Virus record (IMG/VR): IMGVR_UViG_3300033148_006706
Span: 62,001 to 126,000 of that record
Source of the DNA: a virus
Length of the DNA: 64,000 bases
Strand: one strand, 5' to 3'
Of this stretch, positions 198 to 62,075 are shown piece after piece. Numbering within the stretch: the stretch's first letter is position 1; the number at the start of each line of letters is the position of its first letter. A model generated the notes under the pieces. The model was given only the letters and a program-made list of their open reading frames with translations, did no database searches and had not been told where the DNA came from. A program made the position numbers and the translations under genes.

Positions 198-1381
198 TGA
201 AATACTACGGATATAATATAAAATTAAAAATTAATAAGAGCGTTGATCTCGATGATCCTAGTCTTTACTCTTTTTCTCTTACAGATAGTATCTTCAACTT
301 ACTTAATTTCGGCACTATATCGTTCTATGATATAGGCGGACATTTTAGAGAATTTCTAATATTGGAAAACGGCAATGAAGTAAATGTAACTTTTGGTAGA
401 GGGGAGACAATTAATAAATGTAATTATAATATAAAAAGTAACAGTATAGATAGAACAGAGAGTACAAATAGTATAACAGGAGAAATAAAAACAAAAGTAG
501 AACATGCTTGGGGATCAGCAGATGAAAAAATAAAAAGCATTGCTTACGATGATACGATATCTAATATAATTTTAAAACTTGCGAATAGCTATCAATTTAA
601 AAATAAAGATATTACTACAACTCACGATAGAGATATTTGGTATCAACCTTTATTAAATGATATTGATTTTATACAACAACAGTTATTGCCTAATGTGTAT
701 TCAACTTCAAGTAGCGATACTCCTTTATTTTGTTATACCACATACGATAACAATATTCACCTTATTAGCGCAAAAGAAATGTTTGACAAAAAACCAGTAA
801 AAGAATTGTTTTTTACTCCTGCATCTTATAAAGAATTTGAAAGCATGATATTTGTTTTAAAACACTGGACTGTTAATTCTGATGATTATGATAATTTGTT
901 GAATCAAACCATTACTTATATAGATAAAGAGAGCGGTAGTATAATAGAAAAAACAGATAAATTTAAAGATCATTTAATAAATAAAAGCGGTAAGTTATTT
1001 CACATAGGAGATGATAATCAAGCTAAAGGATACGAAAAATTCTTATATAAAGAAAAAGGGCAAAGAGAAAATATCTATAAAGGACAAATTATTAATAAAT
1101 TAAAAAAGAATTATTTTATAAATGAGTTGATGATTACCTGCCCCTATGATCCTAATTTAAAAGCAGGAGAAACGATAAAGTTAAATATTTTTTTATCTGG
1201 GGAGGGAAAGAATCCTGTAAGATCAAAAAGACTCAGTGGAAAATATATAATTGAAGCTAGCGAACAGATATGGAGTGCACAATTAAAGAAAGCTTTTTCT
1301 AAATTGCTTATTGGAGTACCCTCTAGCGGTACCGATCCTAATATTCCTAGTGATTATAGATATAAAGAACTTTTGGTATAA
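197..1381 (+). CDS. baseplate hub protein (gp27/gpD-like)
   Basis: This 394-residue protein lies directly before the spike gene, where contractile-tail phages place the hub that trimerises at the tail tube end and holds the spike. There is no single diagnostic motif. The mixed beta-rich sequence, the length and the synteny (hub, then OB-fold spike, then gp25-like wedge) support the call. The start is coupled to the upstream stop. A short internal frame beginning at 1311 in the spike frame overlaps this gene and is rejected as an N-terminal extension of the spike. Confidence 0.65.
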   Translation: MKYYGYNIKLKINKSVDLDDPSLYSFSLTDSIFNLLNFGTISFYDIGGHFREFLILENGNEVNVTFGRGETINKCNYNIKSNSIDRTESTNSITGEIKTKVEHAWGSADEKIKSIAYDDTISNIILKLANSYQFKNKDITTTHDRDIWYQPLLNDIDFIQQQLLPNVYSTSSSDTPLFCYTTYDNNIHLISAKEMFDKKPVKELFFTPASYKEFESMIFVLKHWTVNSDDYDNLLNQTITYIDKESGSIIEKTDKFKDHLINKSGKLFHIGDDNQAKGYEKFLYKEKGQRENIYKGQIINKLKKNYFINELMITCPYDPNLKAGETIKLNIFLSGEGKNPVRSKRLSGKYIIEASEQIWSAQLKKAFSKLLIGVPSSGTDPNIPSDYRYKELLV

Positions 1382-1385
1382 AACT

Positions 1386-2177
1386 ATGTACAATATAAGA
1401 TTATACTACGGAAAAGTAGAAGAGAATAACGACCCTGATAAAGAATCAAAAATACAGGTACGATTATTACCTGAGATGAAAGATGTAGCAAAGTCTGATT
1501 TGCCCTGGGTACGTCCTTTTCTAGTAGAGAATATGACGGAGGAGGCAACATCTCATTGTCCTTTAGAAGAAGGTAGTACAGTTTGGGTATTCTTTTTAGA
1601 CGAGTACTTTAAATATGGCTTTTACATTAAAGCAACTTTTTTAGATGATTTATTTGATTATGACTCTGTAAAAAGCGATATTGATTCTATAAGTGATTTA
1701 GACTCTCAATCCTATCCTCAACCGAAGTTTACAAGATATAAAGACGGAACTATAGTATTTCACAATTCTGAGACAGGGGAGACAGGAATTTATCATAAAA
1801 GCGGTTCTTATAATGTAATCGATAAAGATGGAAATGTTTTTTCTTATTCAACCGGAGATATTAAAATTTATAATGATAATGGCTCAATCACAATAGATTC
1901 TAACGGGGAGATAGAATTAAATAATTCAAATACTTCTACCTTTACTGTTAAGAATGGAAGTTTTGAATTTGATGGCAATGCAAAAAGTTTAGTTAAATAT
2001 GAAGATTTAATTACCGCATTGGATTCAATGTTTACTCAAATTCAGACCATGGTAATGATTGATCCTCTTACAGGAGTTGCAGGGCCACCTCAAGCTCCTT
2101 TTAATCAAATGAAAACCACTATTTGGGATGCTATCAAAACTAATGCTAAATCAACTACAATAAAAACTCAATCATAG
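1386..2177 (+). CDS. baseplate central spike protein (gpV/gp5-like)
   Basis: The 263-residue product begins with an OB-fold-like region (residues about 1-100, KIQVRLLPEM and LPWVRPFL, as in spike N-terminal domains). It continues as short beta repeats (DKDGNVFSYSTGDIKIYND, then SITIDSNGEIELNN) typical of a triple-stranded beta-helix spike, and ends in a helical tail. The ATG at 1386 was chosen over the longer frame from 1311 because the latter adds a hydrophobic extension overlapping the hub gene. Role: the membrane-piercing tip of a contractile tail. Confidence 0.75.
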   Translation: MYNIRLYYGKVEENNDPDKESKIQVRLLPEMKDVAKSDLPWVRPFLVENMTEEATSHCPLEEGSTVWVFFLDEYFKYGFYIKATFLDDLFDYDSVKSDIDSISDLDSQSYPQPKFTRYKDGTIVFHNSETGETGIYHKSGSYNVIDKDGNVFSYSTGDIKIYNDNGSITIDSNGEIELNNSNTSTFTVKNGSFEFDGNAKSLVKYEDLITALDSMFTQIQTMVMIDPLTGVAGPPQAPFNQMKTTIWDAIKTNAKSTTIKTQS

Positions 2178-44600: not shown

Positions 44601-44663
44601 GCTTACAATGTAAATATATAACTGCACCTGGAAATTAAACTGGGGCTAGCCACCAGGATAGCT
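44601..44663 (-). ncRNA. tRNA-like intergenic element E1 (degenerate)
   Basis: Minus-strand copy of the repeated element, beginning 3 bases after the stop of the gene at 44667. It keeps CCTGGTGGCTAG (D-loop-like), a T-loop-like TTTAATT and the terminal TTACATTGTAA hairpin, and is the same 66-base length as E4. Pairing in the acceptor-like stem is partly lost, so this copy is degenerate. Confidence 0.5.
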
Positions 44664-44666
44664 ATT

Positions 44667-44945
44667 CTATAAAATAACTACATCAGCATCGACGGGCTCA
44701 TATAAAACCACATGCCCGCTGGCTTCTTCAATACTCTTGACAGAAGCTCCCGCCCAGCCAAACGGGCCTCCGACTCCGAAAGGGTCAATTTTAATAGCAT
44801 TGAAAAAATCAACGCTATCCATGCCTTCCCAAACCTTGTTGTCATCAACAAAGAAAACTGCGTAAACATCTTCGCCCTTGTCGACGACTTGATCTTTTAT
44901 TACTGTGTCATACTGCACAGTAAATTTCACTGCTACCTTTTTCAT
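44667..44945 (-). CDS. hypothetical protein (92 residues)
   Basis: Start ATG 44945 has AAGGAGAG upstream. The longer frame to 44996 reads through tRNA-like element E2 and is rejected. Product MKKVAVKFTVQYDTVIKD... has a small beta fold with DVYAVFFVDDNKVWEGMDSV and a glycine-rich loop. Function unknown. Confidence 0.6.
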   Translation of the reverse strand: MKKVAVKFTVQYDTVIKDQVVDKGEDVYAVFFVDDNKVWEGMDSVDFFNAIKIDPFGVGGPFGWAGASVKSIEEASGHVVLYEPVDADVVIL

Positions 44946-44971
44946 TTTTTCTCTCCTTATCATAATATTCT

Positions 44972-45040
44972 GCTTACAACATAAGCATATAACCATGCCC
45001 AGGAATTGAACCCGAGCCTTATACCACTAGAATGAATAAT
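44972..45040 (-). ncRNA. tRNA-like intergenic element E2
   Basis: Minus-strand element between genes. Elements in order: TCTAGTGGTATAAGG (D-loop-like, two bases longer than E4), T-arm CTCGGG-TTCAATT-CCTGGG closing with G-U pairs, an acceptor-like 3' side ATGGTT, and hairpin GCTTAT-GTT-GTAAGC. The T-loop has the T54-T55-C56-R57-A58 pattern. The hairpin differs from E4 by one base that keeps pairing (C-G to U-G). Confidence 0.6.
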
Positions 45041-45051
45041 TGGAATTATAA

Positions 45052-45357
45052 TTATTTATGATAAAATCTTGCTTTTATTCTCCCACTCTTAGTTGTGTAC
45101 AATTCAATAGCATTCTCCCACTCTACACTTGAAGGGGGGTCACCATAGATAACAACCTCTCTTCTTTCACTGTCATCTACCCACTTATAAAAAGTTTCCT
45201 CCTCTATCCAAGAGTGATCCGAAAATATTACTTTTGCGTAATCCCTAAATACTTGATAATCTATCTCTCCATCCGTATAGAAGCACATCGCTACATCTAT
45301 ACCCTGCTCATAAATAAGGTAATCGGGAAGGTCGCTTATCCTAATAATATCTCCCAT
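45052..45357 (-). CDS. hypothetical acidic protein (101 residues)
   Basis: RBS AAAGGAG. Product MGDIIRISDLPDYLIYEQGI... with an acidic middle (SWIEEETFYKWVDDSERREVV) and a basic C-terminus. It may be an alpha/beta domain of about 100 residues. No family was recognised. Flanked by tRNA-like elements E2 and E3. Confidence 0.55.
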   Translation of the reverse strand: MGDIIRISDLPDYLIYEQGIDVAMCFYTDGEIDYQVFRDYAKVIFSDHSWIEEETFYKWVDDSERREVVIYGDPPSSVEWENAIELYTTKSGRIKARFYHK

Positions 45358-45405
45358 CCTTATCTCCTTTACGTTTTAGACCCGCCGGTCATAATATTAT
45401 ATTTC

Positions 45406-45451
45406 GCTTACAACGTAAGCTTACAATTGTACCCAGGAATTGAACCAGGGA
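45406..45451 (-). ncRNA. tRNA-like intergenic element E3 (lacks D-like part)
   Basis: On the minus strand a T-arm CCCTGG-TTCAATT-CCTGGG (one U-U mismatch) starts two bases after the stop of the gene at 45453 and is followed by the hairpin GCTTAC-GTT-GTAAGC. The 5' acceptor and D-like part are missing or replaced by the gene end. The AATATAATATTATGA tail shared with other elements follows. Confidence 0.55.
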
Positions 45452-45452
45452 A

Positions 45453-46022
45453 TTATTCATAATAATTAAAAAGAACAGGCATTATAAAAGCCATATACCG
45501 GAATTTATTATACTGCTGCGATGATACAAGAATCAAAGGATTAAAAGGTTCCGCAGGTATTTGTACTTCCAGAAAATAACCGGAAGGAATATTCTTTAAA
45601 TAGTCACGTAAATGATCGTATTCGATAGTCCAAGTTTCTTTTGTGTTCCAGTTTTTGGACATTTTAATGATTATGTCCGTGTATATGAGCGGTATCGAGC
45701 TAACAGGATATTGAACTAAATATTGAGTTTGTAATTTATATTTCTGCATCACCCGCTTGTGATCTGGGAAATTAATATTATCAGATTGAATCAGATATTT
45801 ATTTTTTAGATCAATATAATAAATTCCTTCGGGCAAAATTATATCCTCGTCTGTAGTTTCAACAATATACATTCTCTTAGTATCGGTACTTACAAGAGAA
45901 TAACCTGTTGAGAGGATATGACCGAAAAACGGCAACCGAGTGCCTTTCCCGGCAGCTACCTTCAAGTATTTTATCAGCGGTTTTAAATCTTGATGAATAA
46001 AAATCTGATCTTTTTCTTTCAT
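45453..46022 (-). CDS. sliding-clamp-like protein (possible truncated beta clamp)
   Basis: 189 residues. ILSTGYSLVSTDTKRMYIVE resembles the ATDxxRL strand of DnaN, INFPDHKRVMQ the FPDY segment, and PAEPFNPLILVSS...YMAFIMPV the C-terminal P..I....Y...IMP strand pair. It is about half the length of a full clamp. It may be a clamp-fold decoy, an accessory processivity factor or a distant relative. RBS GGAGG. This is inference from short patterns. Confidence 0.4.
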   Translation of the reverse strand: MKEKDQIFIHQDLKPLIKYLKVAAGKGTRLPFFGHILSTGYSLVSTDTKRMYIVETTDEDIILPEGIYYIDLKNKYLIQSDNINFPDHKRVMQKYKLQTQYLVQYPVSSIPLIYTDIIIKMSKNWNTKETWTIEYDHLRDYLKNIPSGYFLEVQIPAEPFNPLILVSSQQYNKFRYMAFIMPVLFNYYE

Positions 46023-46043
46023 TTTGTTATCCTCCGTTTTATT

Positions 46044-46481
46044 CTATCTATCAAATTTAAAATAAACTCTCGGTTCAATCTCCCCAGGACGTCCAACGTC
46101 AAACCCGATGGGCATGATCGGTTCTAATTCATAAGCTCCTAGAAAGCCCTCGAGAAGATTCTCTTGATCGATTTGATCAAGAGTAAGAAAGATTGCCTCT
46201 TCAGCTGGAGATAGGGAAGCGCCAACATTACCTAAGAACCAGAGTTGACCGAAATTGAGATTTTTAACCTCAACTTCAACTCTGTACCATGGGTCATCAG
46301 CAAGAATGATCCATTTTGGAAAACTCTGCCCCCGCAAGGCTTTCCTAAGATCATTTACAGATGGGAATTTATACTTCCCGTTTGTATTGATCGTTAGAGA
46401 TAGAGAGCGAGGGGCTGGAGCTCCTTCTTTCTTTACTCCATCCCAAGAGAATCCAGGGCGGATTGAAAAAGAATATTTCAT
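46044..46481 (-). CDS. paralogous hypothetical protein, copy 1
   Basis: 145 residues from ATG 46481. This start matches its paralogue at 47116-47580 (MKYSFSIRP versus MKRSFRIRP), so an earlier ATG at 46502 is rejected. Shared landmarks are WDGxKKxG.P.P, LRKAL/MREAL, FGQLWFLGNVGASLSPAE and a C-terminal D(V/L)GRPG..EP...F. Function unknown; the two copies are separated by a pair of small genes and elements E4 and E5. Confidence 0.65.
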   Translation of the reverse strand: MKYSFSIRPGFSWDGVKKEGAPAPRSLSLTINTNGKYKFPSVNDLRKALRGQSFPKWIILADDPWYRVEVEVKNLNFGQLWFLGNVGASLSPAEEAIFLTLDQIDQENLLEGFLGAYELEPIMPIGFDVGRPGEIEPRVYFKFDR

Positions 46482-46515
46482 TTCTCTCATTTCTCCTTTC
46501 ATTATAATATATTCT

Positions 46516-46578
46516 GCTTACAACGTAAGCTTACAGCCGTGCCCAGGAATCGAACCTGGGCTAACCACCAGGACGGCT
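46516..46578 (-). ncRNA. tRNA-like intergenic element E4 (best copy)
   Basis: Minus strand, 5' to 3': acceptor-like AGCCGT, CCTGGTGGTTAG (contains GG as in a D-loop), T-arm GCCCAGG-TTCGATT-CCTGGGC with 7-bp stem and 7-base loop, acceptor 3' side ACGGCT, then hairpin GCTTAC-GTT-GTAAGC. The acceptor-like stem (46535-46540 / 46573-46578) pairs perfectly. The anticodon arm is absent and no CCA end is encoded. It lies between a stop codon (46591) and the next ATG. Confidence 0.75.
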
Positions 46579-46590
46579 AATTCCAATTTG

Positions 46591-46821
46591 TTAGTACTGC
46601 AATTTTTCCAAAAGCCACACATACCCATCCCATTCATAGCGAATAGGATGAACGATAAACCCGTCTTCTCTCGTATGGTTGCGAAGATATCTTTCTACAG
46701 CTCCAGGGCTTCTCTTTATAATTCTGTATGGATGATCTTCCTGCTGCTGCAGAAACCACATGAGATCAATGATCTCATCCTTCTTTCCGTTCTCCCAAAT
46801 TTTTACCACGTCATTTCTCAT
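46591..46821 (-). CDS. hypothetical protein (76 residues)
   Basis: RBS GGAGAGG. Product MRNDVVKIWENGKKDEIIDL... with charged helices and a C-terminal HPIRYEWDGYVWLLEKLQY. No family was recognised. Directly upstream of element E4. Confidence 0.5.
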   Translation of the reverse strand: MRNDVVKIWENGKKDEIIDLMWFLQQQEDHPYRIIKRSPGAVERYLRNHTREDGFIVHPIRYEWDGYVWLLEKLQY

Positions 46822-46838
46822 TTCTTCACCTCTCCATT

Positions 46839-47015
46839 TTAATAATCTTCTCCAGGTTCTCTTCTTAGAACCTTTTGAAGTCTAATTTTATATGCTCGAG
46901 GACTTAGAACTTCTAAGTCCTCATAATTTTTGACGAAATCAAAGCACTTTTCCATATTCCCCTCAAAGAGGACATCTGCCCTTTTGAAGGAAACCACAAC
47001 CCACTTTTTCTCCAT
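46839..47015 (-). CDS. small hypothetical protein (58 residues)
   Basis: Short gene with strong RBS AAGGAGAG five bases before ATG 47015. Product MEKKWVVVSFKRADVLFEGN... ends RLQKVLRREPGEDY and looks like a compact alpha/beta domain. It precedes the 76-residue gene by 17 bases. Function unknown. Confidence 0.6.
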   Translation of the reverse strand: MEKKWVVVSFKRADVLFEGNMEKCFDFVKNYEDLEVLSPRAYKIRLQKVLRREPGEDY

Positions 47016-47046
47016 CTTTCTCTCCTTTCTTTTTCATAATCTTCTA

Positions 47047-47062
47047 CTTGCCATACGGCGAG
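47047..47062 (-). ncRNA. intergenic hairpin E5 (element remnant)
   Basis: Minus-strand hairpin CTCGCC-GTAT-GGCAAG, one mismatch from the E6 hairpin. The tRNA-like part is not recognisable in the 50 bases before it, though AGCT ends there. It is probably an eroded copy. Confidence 0.4.
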
Positions 47063-47115
47063 CTATATTCCTATAAATATATCACTTAGCGAACTTTTGG
47101 CCCCAGCTTCCCCCT

Positions 47116-47580
47116 CTAAAATTTTAGAAAAAGTGCAGGCTCGGGCCCACCGGGACGCCCCAAATCCAAGCTTACAGGTCGGATATGTATCCCACCGTGA
47201 ATGTCCAAGAACTTGTCGAGAAGATTCATTCGGCTCCCATCATCGGATGTGACATATTCTTGGTTAGCCTGATTCATAACTGAGAGAATTTCTCTCTCGG
47301 CTAAATTGAGAGTTGCTCCAACTTGGCCAAGAAAGAACAATTGATCAAATGTCATATCCCTGATATCACATTTGACTTCGATTCTCACATCTGGGCCATC
47401 ATTAACAATAGTCCAGATAAAGCCATGCCCGTCCAGGGCTTCCCTCATATCTCTTACTGACGAGAAACTCCGCTCTCCGTCAGTGAGAATTATTAAAGTC
47501 ATTGAGTGCGGGTCTGGCACTCCATGCTTTTTTGCCCCATCCCAGAAGAATCTAGGGCGAATTCTAAAAGACCGCTTCAT
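47116..47580 (-). CDS. paralogous hypothetical protein, copy 2
   Basis: 154 residues, paralogue of the gene at 46044-46481 (same N-terminal MKxSFxIRP, FDQLFFLGQVGATLNLAE and C-terminal LGRPGGPEPA). RBS AAAGGAGG. The insert VTSDDGSRMNLLDKF is unique to this copy. The two copies have diverged well beyond a recent duplication. Function unknown. Confidence 0.65.
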   Translation of the reverse strand: MKRSFRIRPRFFWDGAKKHGVPDPHSMTLIILTDGERSFSSVRDMREALDGHGFIWTIVNDGPDVRIEVKCDIRDMTFDQLFFLGQVGATLNLAEREILSVMNQANQEYVTSDDGSRMNLLDKFLDIHGGIHIRPVSLDLGRPGGPEPALFLKF

Positions 47581-47798
47581 TTTCTTCCTCCTTTAATAAT
47601 ATTATTAGTCTCCTTTAACAGAGACTCTTCACTATAATGCCCCCCGCAATATAGACAATATAAGTAATCTCCATACCCATATATCTTTATATCAGATAAA
47701 GATATGGGATCGCCAACATTAAGCGCTTCAATTGCACATTTAACATGATAGCGCAAAGGATTCGCTATCACTTCATTATACATAGTACTATTTTTCAT
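47577..47798 (-). CDS. small zinc-finger-like protein, copy 1
   Basis: 73 residues with LYCLYCGGHYSEESL (CxxCGG knuckle) plus an upstream Cys. Paralogue of the gene at 48280-48504: both share MYNE..A.PLRYHVKC.IEA and SLS(D/N)IKIY.YG. The unusually well conserved N-terminal half suggests a functional surface. It overlaps the next gene by 4 bases. Confidence 0.6.
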   Translation of the reverse strand: MKNSTMYNEVIANPLRYHVKCAIEALNVGDPISLSDIKIYGYGDYLYCLYCGGHYSEESLLKETNNIIKGGRK

Positions 47799-47825
47799 TT
47801 TCTTTCTCCATTTAATGATTTTCTA

Positions 47826-47889
47826 CTTGCCATACGGCAAGTTACAGCCGTGTCCGGGAATCGAACCCGGGCCTAACCACCAGGACGGC
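47826..47889 (-). ncRNA. tRNA-like intergenic element E6
   Basis: Minus strand: GCCGT acceptor-like side, CCTGGTGGTTAG, T-arm CCGGG-TTCGATT-CCCGG, ACGGC side, then hairpin CTTGCC-GTAT-GGCAAG. Compared with E4, the T-stem changes A-U to G-C on both sides, and the final hairpin has different bases but keeps its stem, which is covariation evidence for RNA structure. Starts 8 bases after the stop of the gene at 47897. Confidence 0.75.
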
Positions 47890-47896
47890 AATCCCT

Positions 47897-48124: not shown

Positions 48125-48287
48125 TTTCTTCTTCCTTTAGTCTGTCACAATAGACATTACCATTTTCATCTACTCCCGAGTTACATCCGCCACCAAATGG
48201 CGAACATGACAACCCGGACGACTTCCAAGTGTAATCATAATACGGGCAATCATCACCCGACATAATTTGAGACGGTTCTTTATTCAT
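48105..48287 (-). CDS. small Cys-rich acidic protein (60 residues)
   Basis: RBS AGGAGAG. Four to five Cys (DDCPYYDY, LSCSPFGGGCNSG, VYCDRLKEE) and an acidic tail. It overlaps the upstream gene by 8 bases and the downstream gene by 20. Function unknown. Confidence 0.5.
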   Translation of the reverse strand: MNKEPSQIMSGDDCPYYDYTWKSSGLSCSPFGGGCNSGVDENGNVYCDRLKEEENEEEDN

Positions 48288-48504
48288 TTTTCTCTCCTCT
48301 TATAATTTCATTGCTTTCCTTCATTAATGACTCTTCACTATATTGTCCTCCACAATACGGACAATATAATGAACCACCATACTTATATATCTTTATATTA
48401 GATAAAGATATATAATCATCAATGTCAAATGCTTCGATTAAACATTTGACGTGATAGCGCAAAGGATGCGCTACCGCTTCATTGTACATAGCATTGTTTC
48501 TCAT
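48280..48504 (-). CDS. small zinc-finger-like protein, copy 2
   Basis: 74 residues, paralogue of the gene at 47577-47798, with LYCPYCGGQYSEESL. Both copies end in a short charged helix. The presence of two copies in one array, like the other paralogue pair, points to cassette duplication in this region. Confidence 0.6.
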   Translation of the reverse strand: MRNNAMYNEAVAHPLRYHVKCLIEAFDIDDYISLSNIKIYKYGGSLYCPYCGGQYSEESLMKESNEIIRGEKNE

Positions 48505-50235: not shown

Positions 50236-50385
50236 TTCGTTTCCAGCCGCGTGGGATTCGAACCCACCCCGGCTAATGCCGGTTCCCGCATCGGAATTTC
50301 ACCTTGCGGCCGATGCCCCTGTCTGCAGCCAGGCGTCCGGGACTTTTTTACGGTGGGACACTCACCGAAATTTCATTTTTAATTA
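50236..50385 (-). ncRNA. GC-rich structured leader RNA with T-arm module
   Basis: The minus-strand transcript from the promoter at 50391-50419 would run through strong helices: CGGTG/CACCG, outer TCCCG/CGGGA, CCTG/CAGG, CATCGG/CCGATG, CCGGC-ATTA-GCCGG, and a T-arm GTGGG-TTCGAAT-CCCAC followed by GCGGCTG. The last bases can pair with CGGCCGC upstream to form an acceptor-like stem, but no 7-base anticodon loop can be placed, so it is not an ordinary tRNA. The dense GC helices are exceptional in this genome. It ends about 25 bases before the first gene of the array. Confidence 0.65.
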
Positions 50386-50390
50386 ACTGC

Positions 50391-50419
50391 ATTATACCCC
50401 CCTTTGCAAAAAAAGTCAA
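50391..50419 (-). promoter_or_regulatory. consensus sigma-70 promoter for the leader RNA and small-gene array
   Basis: On the minus strand TTGACT (50414-50419), a 17-base spacer ending in six G, and TATAAT (50391-50396). This is the clearest host-type promoter in the window, with start expected near 50384. It drives the structured RNA and probably the small genes downstream. Confidence 0.8.
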
Positions 50420-61679: not shown

Positions 61680-62075
61680 ATGAAGAATTTAACAACAATT
61701 CAAGTATTTATAGTGTTTCCAAAAAGAAAAGATAAATGGAAATATTATATTAATGACAATCTTAAAGATAGTCATACTCTCCATCGTGATAAAATTCAAC
61801 AACTCATATTACAATATATAAACTCTAAAGCTGGTAATCAAGTAATAGAGCATCTAAACAAATATCATGCTTTCATAGTATATACAAAACAGAATAAAGT
61901 ATATAGATTACAAGTCGATAAGGAGTCAGCATTTAAACAAATGAAAGAAAAATTCAACAGAGAAGCATTTAATGCAGATAAAATTTATAAAAAAATAAAA
62001 AAAGAGCAAACAAAAAATGAAGATGATATGTTTATCTCTCAAAATAATGCGCTATTGAAAAAAATCTTAAAATAA
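61680..62075 (+). CDS. hypothetical protein (131 residues)
   Basis: Opens the divergent operon. Lys-rich, helical product (KRKDKWKYYINDNLKDSH, KEKFNREAFNADKIYKKIKK) that may bind nucleic acid. Its stop overlaps the next start (TAATG). Leading sequence has no clear RBS (ACTAACATTACACTATG). Function unknown. Confidence 0.55.
   Translation: MKNLTTIQVFIVFPKRKDKWKYYINDNLKDSHTLHRDKIQQLILQYINSKAGNQVIEHLNKYHAFIVYTKQNKVYRLQVDKESAFKQMKEKFNREAFNADKIYKKIKKEQTKNEDDMFISQNNALLKKILK

Follow-up and report, generated by a model that had tools for sequence, protein, structure and literature searches.

What are the short, repeated elements that look like parts of a transfer RNA (tRNA) and lie between the small genes of an uncultured phage, and what might they do there? 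The question is raised by a stretch of 64,000 nucleotides (nt), here called the window, that covers positions 62,001 to 126,000 of IMG/VR record IMGVR_UViG_3300033148_006706. This 139,904-base-pair (bp) record of an uncultured virus is a tailed phage by its gene content, with baseplate and tail-fibre genes, rIIA, a DNA polymerase and helicases. A reading of the window made from its letters (the sequence-only reading) had described six sites, E1 to E6, as copies of a tRNA elbow mimic lacking the anticodon arm. All six lie on the minus strand within an array of small same-strand genes, between co-directional genes and on their coding strand. The analysis suggests that the elements are probably cis-acting RNA punctuation modules, that is, minimal tRNA mimics that would be cut by host RNase P, RNase Z or both, and the same architecture was found in many other phages.

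Two copies, E4 and E6, are complete, and both sequence and a strict descriptor confirm them as tRNA-like elements without an anticodon arm (Table 1). In E4 a 6-bp acceptor stem joins positions 46578-46573 (AGCCGT) to 46540-46535 (ACGGCT), the D-like linker CCTGGTGGTTA contains GG, and a 7-bp T-arm at 46561-46541 reads GCCCAGG-TTCGATT-CCTGGGC. The acceptor is followed by GTAA, a hairpin, a Shine-Dalgarno sequence and the start of gene 46044-46502. The computed fold of E4 is exactly the proposed structure, with -27.8 kcal/mol and z = -3.75, and none of 200 shuffles was as good. E6 combines a 5-bp acceptor (47889-47885, GCCGT, paired with 47851-47847), the linker CCTGGTGGTTAG, and a T-stem CCGGG/CCCGG with the loop TTCGATT; with short flanks its acceptor, T-arm and hairpin all form. 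As noticed earlier, E4 and E6 do differ by compensatory changes, from A-U to G-C in the T-stem and further ones in both hairpins. The strict descriptor asks for a T-stem of 5 bp with a closing G-C pair, a TTCRANN loop, an acceptor flush with the T-arm, and GG within an 8-16-nt linker. It matched E4 and E6 only in the whole 139,904-bp record, and gave zero matches on 60 whole-record and 400 regional dinucleotide shuffles. As a separate observation on E6 (47826-47891, minus strand), its acceptor 5' strand TTGCCGT is able to pair with the downstream hairpin instead; formation of the tRNA-like fold could then preclude the hairpin and vice versa, which would make a possible switch.

The remaining copies are less complete. 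E2 shows the pattern clearly, with a D-loop TAGTGGTATAAG that is tRNA-like and unlike that of E4, a 7-bp T-stem, the loop TTCAATT and an acceptor of five out of six pairs (one mismatch), and its free fold is weak (z = -0.5). E1 has kept a copy of the D-loop, CCTGGTGGCTAG, and five of six acceptor pairs, has lost the T-stem, and reads TTTAATT in the loop. The T-arm of E3 begins 2 nt past the stop codon of gene 45453-46022 and has neither a D-loop nor a real acceptor beside it. Three copies, E2, E4 and E6, thus carry a usable tRNA-like element, and the label 'partial' is fair for the degraded E1 and E3, but not for E5, which is a hairpin without any tRNA-like part. The proposed placement just after stop codons likewise holds for E1-E4 and E6, at distances of 2-14 nt, but not for the E5 hairpin, which stands 54 nt past its stop codon. 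A TTCRANN T-loop on a 5-7-bp T-stem closed by G-C is found in E2, E4, E6 and the elements surveyed in other phages; it is lacking in E1 and E5 and carries a stem mismatch in E3. GG occurs in the D-like loop between the acceptor 5' strand and the T-arm of E2, E4 and E6, and an anticodon arm is absent from every window copy.

The check with Rfam and a tRNA finder that had been suggested for the window yielded no Rfam 15 match at curated thresholds, a lax search giving sub-threshold T-arm matches to transfer-messenger RNA (tmRNA) only, and ARAGORN found no normal tRNA gene anywhere in the 139,904-bp record. The single ARAGORN call in the window, 46534-46626, consists of E4 plus the end of the preceding gene and has no anticodon. 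Pfam and PHROGs returned nothing informative for the small genes adjoining the elements. No terminator-like site, defined as a GC-rich hairpin with a T run, was found at E1-E6 on the minus strand, which disfavours a reading of these sites as intrinsic terminators. Two IMG/VR records that share the region are 100% identical wherever compared, so that neither selection nor conservation can be read from them, and relatives by DNA polymerase are only about 25% identical. Since the closest kin were uninformative, the architecture was sought in other phages.

Searching for DNA similar to E4 led to un-annotated gaps in Streptomyces phages. In Saftant, eight of eight genomic T-arms belong to armless elements with a flush 5-bp acceptor, on the coding strand and between small genes, at 42.9-47.5 kb. 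RedBear carries seven copies, Leviticus 10 and Konstantine five, and at least one copy each was found in Rope (with further copies in a second region), Microbacterium phage Hubbs and Synechococcus phage S-RIP2. Elements also occur in Streptococcus phages LYGO9 and Javan384 and in Lactococcus phage 63302. The carriers, many of them unrelated, include Streptomyces phages (7-10 copies per genome), mycobacteriophages, one Microbacterium phage, cyanophages, phages of Streptococcus and Lactococcus and many uncultured phages, and the recurring layout is a stop codon, often a hairpin, the armless tRNA elbow, a hairpin and the next gene. Using one of the Saftant elements with its flanks, 677 matching places were obtained in 152 phage records, 113 of which are Streptomyces phages. 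Pattern scans of uncultured phages, followed by a structure filter and removal of ARAGORN tRNAs, provided at least 276 candidates in at least 123 loci. Across 257 Gb of genome sequence from bacteria and archaea, an E4-like pattern matched once, in a Limosilactobacillus contig. When the pattern carried the tRNA-like AGTGGTTA loop, the matches were mostly of other kinds, many of them apparent real tRNAs, and L029 was the clear element. The element types differ in linker length, which prevents a structural alignment across all of them.

Covariation was measured in two sets. The actinophage set comprised 28 elements of equal length, in which 99.7% of cells were paired and 66 double changes were counted, with nine of 12 pairs showing them; the scan had required stem pairing, so that the stem count leans towards pairing. 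The covariation value was 0.538, against 0.137 for column-shuffled and at most 0.108 for slid alignments. The closing pair of the D-loop (columns 7-13), which was never selected for, is G-C in 14 elements and C-G in 13, and the GG of the D-loop, which was not required either, occurs in every one of 38 actinophage elements. A separate low-GC set gave a covariation of 1.034 versus 0.211. The acceptor was examined among 41 matches to the D-loop and T-arm pattern that have a T-stem, in which the acceptor had not been selected: 17 carry a flush acceptor with 6 bp or more, four of these being related copies in L084, while swapping 3' flanks among the 41 gave a mean of 1.3 and a maximum of 6. In the same set the AA before the D-loop is invariant, though it lies outside the pattern. 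The acceptor is thus flush with the T-arm and kept by covariation, stem sequences vary freely provided that they pair, and the loop and the linker GG are fixed. A covariance model built from the low-GC set, R2, ranked E4 first and E6 second in the record of about 140 kb, followed by a leader RNA; its training set was chosen by a D/T-loop pattern derived from E4 and E6, which makes the result supportive rather than independent. The model from actinophages only, R1, matched the window at T-arms only, with non-significant E-values. The structural part of the sequence-only reading, an elbow mimic, is thus well supported and extends far beyond the source phage, with strongly covarying elements in many phages; this contradicts the refuting outcome that the reading had named, an absence of such elements elsewhere and of covariation outside its own copies.

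Placement was assessed in seven annotated regions from actinophages and a cyanophage. All 33 elements lie in same-strand intergenic gaps and none is on the opposite strand; gaps account for 2-20% of these regions. Most are 6-20 nt past a stop codon and 33-52 nt ahead of a start codon. Flush upstream hairpins, which often hold the stop codon in or beside their loop, accompany 22 of 38 elements versus 18% of random positions (p 6e-8), and flush downstream hairpins accompany 25 of 38 versus 22% (p 2e-8). The two bases past the acceptor are usually A and C (28/33 and 30/33), and CCA is not encoded, a combination that suits the CCA-less tRNA ends cut by RNase Z.

Taken together, a part of the tRNA elbow between genes, hairpins at the would-be ends and the missing CCA make a cut signal the simplest reading. 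In this mechanism, the acceptor stem would stack on the T-arm to about 11-13 bp in total without an anticodon arm, and the GG of the D-like linker would dock into the TTCRANN T-loop, giving a tRNA elbow in three dimensions. When the polycistronic phage message folds, the host tRNA end-processing enzymes would recognise the mimic, with RNase P cutting on the 5' side, RNase Z on the 3' side, or both. The upstream message would then end just past its stop codon, often at the hairpin that holds it, and the downstream message would begin at a short hairpin ahead of its ribosome-binding site, so that messages of individual small genes could be separated and stabilised. Published work bears on the two enzymes: E. 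coli RNase P RNA cleaves hairpins made of acceptor stem, T-stem and T-loop at the canonical site (PMC11143913), and both RNase P and RNase Z recognise the tRNA elbow (PMC4810234). Among the options offered by the sequence-only reading (cleavage, shielding of 3' ends, or binding of an elbow-recognising protein), cutting of the polycistronic message by RNase P or RNase Z appears the best given this anatomy, and the interpretation as a whole is partly supported. There is about an even chance of a broader statement, namely that stop-codon hairpin, armless elbow and 5' hairpin form a widespread, uncatalogued class of phage cis-RNA that recruits host tRNA-maturation enzymes, dissects polycistronic messages into separately capped mRNAs, and has repeatedly arisen or spread among phages whose hosts are Actinobacteria, Cyanobacteria, Firmicutes or uncultured.

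Several findings weigh against cleavage. In 26 of 33 annotated elements an A precedes the acceptor, not the U favoured by RNase P, and the 3' RCC motif is partial, with A73 and C74 mostly present and no CCA; both U at -1 and the 3' RCC(A) are preferences of RNase P, not absolute requirements. Actinophage acceptors have 5 bp instead of 7. In the window, only three of six copies are intact (E2, E4 and E6), whereas every site retains its downstream hairpin, which may therefore matter more there. When E6 is folded with tighter ends, a competing structure comes out slightly better (z = -1.7). Finally, arrays in some uncultured phages are poorly suited to simple gene punctuation and would fit a decoy or another elbow-binding role. 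An example is the array at positions 900-1950 (minus strand) of L084, with six armless elements (five strict, one imperfect) separated by A/C-rich, apparently non-coding spacers of about 100 nt; it may be an RNA of its own, perhaps a decoy.

The L084 array bears on the strongest alternative, in which the elements stay uncleaved and serve as RNA caps or binding sites that shield 3' or 5' ends, recruit an elbow-binding factor (the CCA-adding enzyme, EF-Tu, a modification enzyme or a phage protein) or act as decoys. The conserved surface, T-loop plus GG, is the elbow, which many other proteins recognise (PMC4810234), and an array without obvious genes between its copies resembles a decoy or sponge. 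However, most copies are found between genes and not in a separate transcript unit, and the tight spacing from stop codon to next gene, with flush hairpins on both sides, is what a cut site needs and a decoy does not. This alternative is possible but rather unlikely.

Unlikelier still is a role at the DNA level, as gene-shuffling cassettes that promote recombination and owe their tRNA look to a captured tRNA gene. The promoter-early stem-loop (PeSL) cassettes of T4-type phages, which join an early promoter to a simple stem-loop, offer the closest comparison, being likewise repeated between genes and placing a hairpin ahead of small genes. The window repeats do stand between small genes of unknown function, with the decayed E1, E3 and E5 beside intact copies, but the phage elements carry a tRNA elbow and no consistent promoter: a promoter-like site overlaps E1 only, and the region shows no enrichment of them (24 versus 18.8 expected). 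The compensatory stem changes within one phage, moreover, lower DNA homology while keeping RNA structure.

Decaying tRNA genes or attachment-site fragments without present function are a very improbable origin. Degraded copies occur in the window, and tRNA fragments of phages can lie at attachment sites, as in an example in PMC8022706. Against this stand the covariation of acceptor and T-stem in the well-sampled sets, which disfavours the idea, the restriction to gaps between genes with up to 10 copies per genome, and the record itself, which has no tRNA genes and a lone ARAGORN call that lacks an anticodon. A last reading takes the elements for DNA operators of the stoperator kind, repeated and oriented protein-binding sites in intergenic DNA, which R4-like Streptomyces phages probably use. 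Near-palindromic T-arms on one strand of intergenic DNA recall the intergenic, singly oriented stoperators of cluster A mycobacteriophages (PMC3029335), but this is the least probable reading of all and is disfavoured by the covariation, since a DNA site would conserve the stem sequence, which here varies freely around a fixed loop and linker GG.

The reading as RNA punctuation has its nearest parallel in mitochondria, where tRNAs punctuate polycistronic transcripts and are processed by RNase P and RNase Z. In both cases tRNA folds lie between the genes of one transcript, and cuts at their ends free, or here would free, the mRNAs. The phage elements differ as minimal mimics without an anticodon arm or full D-stem, which cannot be tRNAs, and they occur in DNA phages of bacteria, often with a hairpin on one or both sides. 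The mascRNA/menRNA type of RNA occurs as a single element in eukaryotes and has a reduced anticodon arm, whereas the phage elements have none and are repeated between genes. As in these products of MALAT1-type long non-coding RNAs, a short tRNA-like element would mark the cut site of a tRNA enzyme (PMC4810234). Viral elbow mimicry is also seen in the tRNA-like structures of plant RNA viruses, at least one of which, that of turnip yellow mosaic virus (TYMV), is an RNase P substrate as cited in PMC11143913. Those structures are single, 3'-terminal and pseudoknotted in RNA genomes, whereas the phage elements are many, intergenic and in DNA phages, with an unpseudoknotted acceptor. RNase P also handles mRNA or phage RNA in individual cases, and PMC11143913 and PMC5723415 cite the P1/P7 C4 antisense RNA precursor, a polycistronic operon mRNA and the adenine riboswitch; none was found described as an armless elbow repeated between genes. 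Substrates of the AT1 type (PMC11143913) contain the same minimal part, acceptor stem, T-stem and T-loop, and are cut by bacterial RNase P at the canonical site, but they are engineered and lack the D-like GG linker, whereas the phage elements are natural.

A literature search, with most subscription journals and all preprints outside its scope, found no description of such phage elements. tRNA-like structures and tRNA punctuation are known, and the repetition of armless elbows between genes in DNA phages seems to add a variant to them, possibly even a class of its own. If the proposal is right, many phages turn the essential tRNA-trimming machinery of the host into an mRNA-cutting system, with cut sites between small genes marked by mimics of about 40 nt that current tRNA and RNA-family searches miss. 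It would also account for some of the long 'empty' gaps within arrays of small genes in well-studied phages, make exact mRNA ends predictable, and provide natural minimal substrates of RNase P and RNase Z. Cultured carriers exist in Streptomyces phages Saftant and Leviticus and mycobacteriophages Konstantine and Rope, so that the proposal is directly testable.

Table 1. Coordinates of the tRNA-like elements, their hairpins and associated features in the window.
Feature	Positions	Strand	Basis
E1, decayed element	44620-44663	-	sequence; fold shows no tRNA-like structure
E1 downstream hairpin, TTTAC-ATT-GTAAG	44602-44614	-	sequence
E2, armless tRNA-like element	44991-45037	-	sequence; T-arm called; weak free fold
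E2 downstream hairpin, GCTTAT-GTT-GTAAGC	44972-44986	-	sequence; fold
E3, T-arm remnant with one stem mismatch	45432-45450	-	sequence
E3 downstream hairpin, GCTTAC-GTT-GTAAGC	45406-45420	-	sequence; fold
E4, complete armless tRNA-like element	46535-46578	-	sequence; fold; strict descriptor; R2 29.5 bits, E 3e-5
E4 downstream hairpin, GCTTAC-GTT-GTAAGC	46516-46530	-	sequence; fold
E5, hairpin only, CTCGCC-GTAT-GGCAAG, one mismatch	47047-47062	-	sequence
E6, complete armless tRNA-like element	47846-47889	-	sequence; strict descriptor; R2 24.4 bits, E 1e-3
E6 downstream hairpin, CTTGCC-GTAT-GGCAAG	47826-47841	-	sequence; compensatory versus E4 hairpin
Leader tRNA-like RNA	50244-50312	-	T-arm called; third-best R2 match; weak free fold, z -0.56
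Best sigma70-like promoter of the region, TTGACT-17-TATAAT	50391-50419	-	11/12 matches; consensus match only

The leader of the small-gene array (50390-50244, minus strand) stands just past the best promoter-like site, itself upstream of both leader and array, and contains a further tRNA-like RNA, larger than the E elements and without an Rfam match. This RNA has a 7-bp acceptor CGGCCGC/GCGGCTG, a T-arm GTGGG-TTCGAAT-CCCAC and a 38-nt insert with a CCGGC/GCCGG hairpin. RNAs of a similar style, with a 7-bp acceptor, a T-arm and large unrelated inserts, occupy long intergenic gaps in Bacillus phage Ray17 (L059, 1319-1734) and Mycobacterium phage Tourach (L061, 1192-1679). Within the array, two pairs of minus-strand genes look similar (46044-46502 and 47116-47580; 47577-47798 and 48280-48504), and in each pair only one gene has an intact element directly before it.

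Spacing and setting vary further among other loci. In a few contigs (L183, L099) the next start codon is within 2-3 nt of the element, an arrangement that would give leaderless messages after a 3' cut. L016 (1200-1650) has several consecutive T-arms in a structured gap upstream of an apparent ParB-like gene. In the Lactococcus 936-group phages CB14 and 63302 (L308 and L314), the gap that follows the middle-expressed genes carries a series of un-annotated T-arms; part of them have tRNA-like spacing, others are armless. L012 (500-1250) contains a tRNA cluster with repeated ATATTAAAACA cassettes, in which odd T-arm-bearing segments lie between normal tRNAs.

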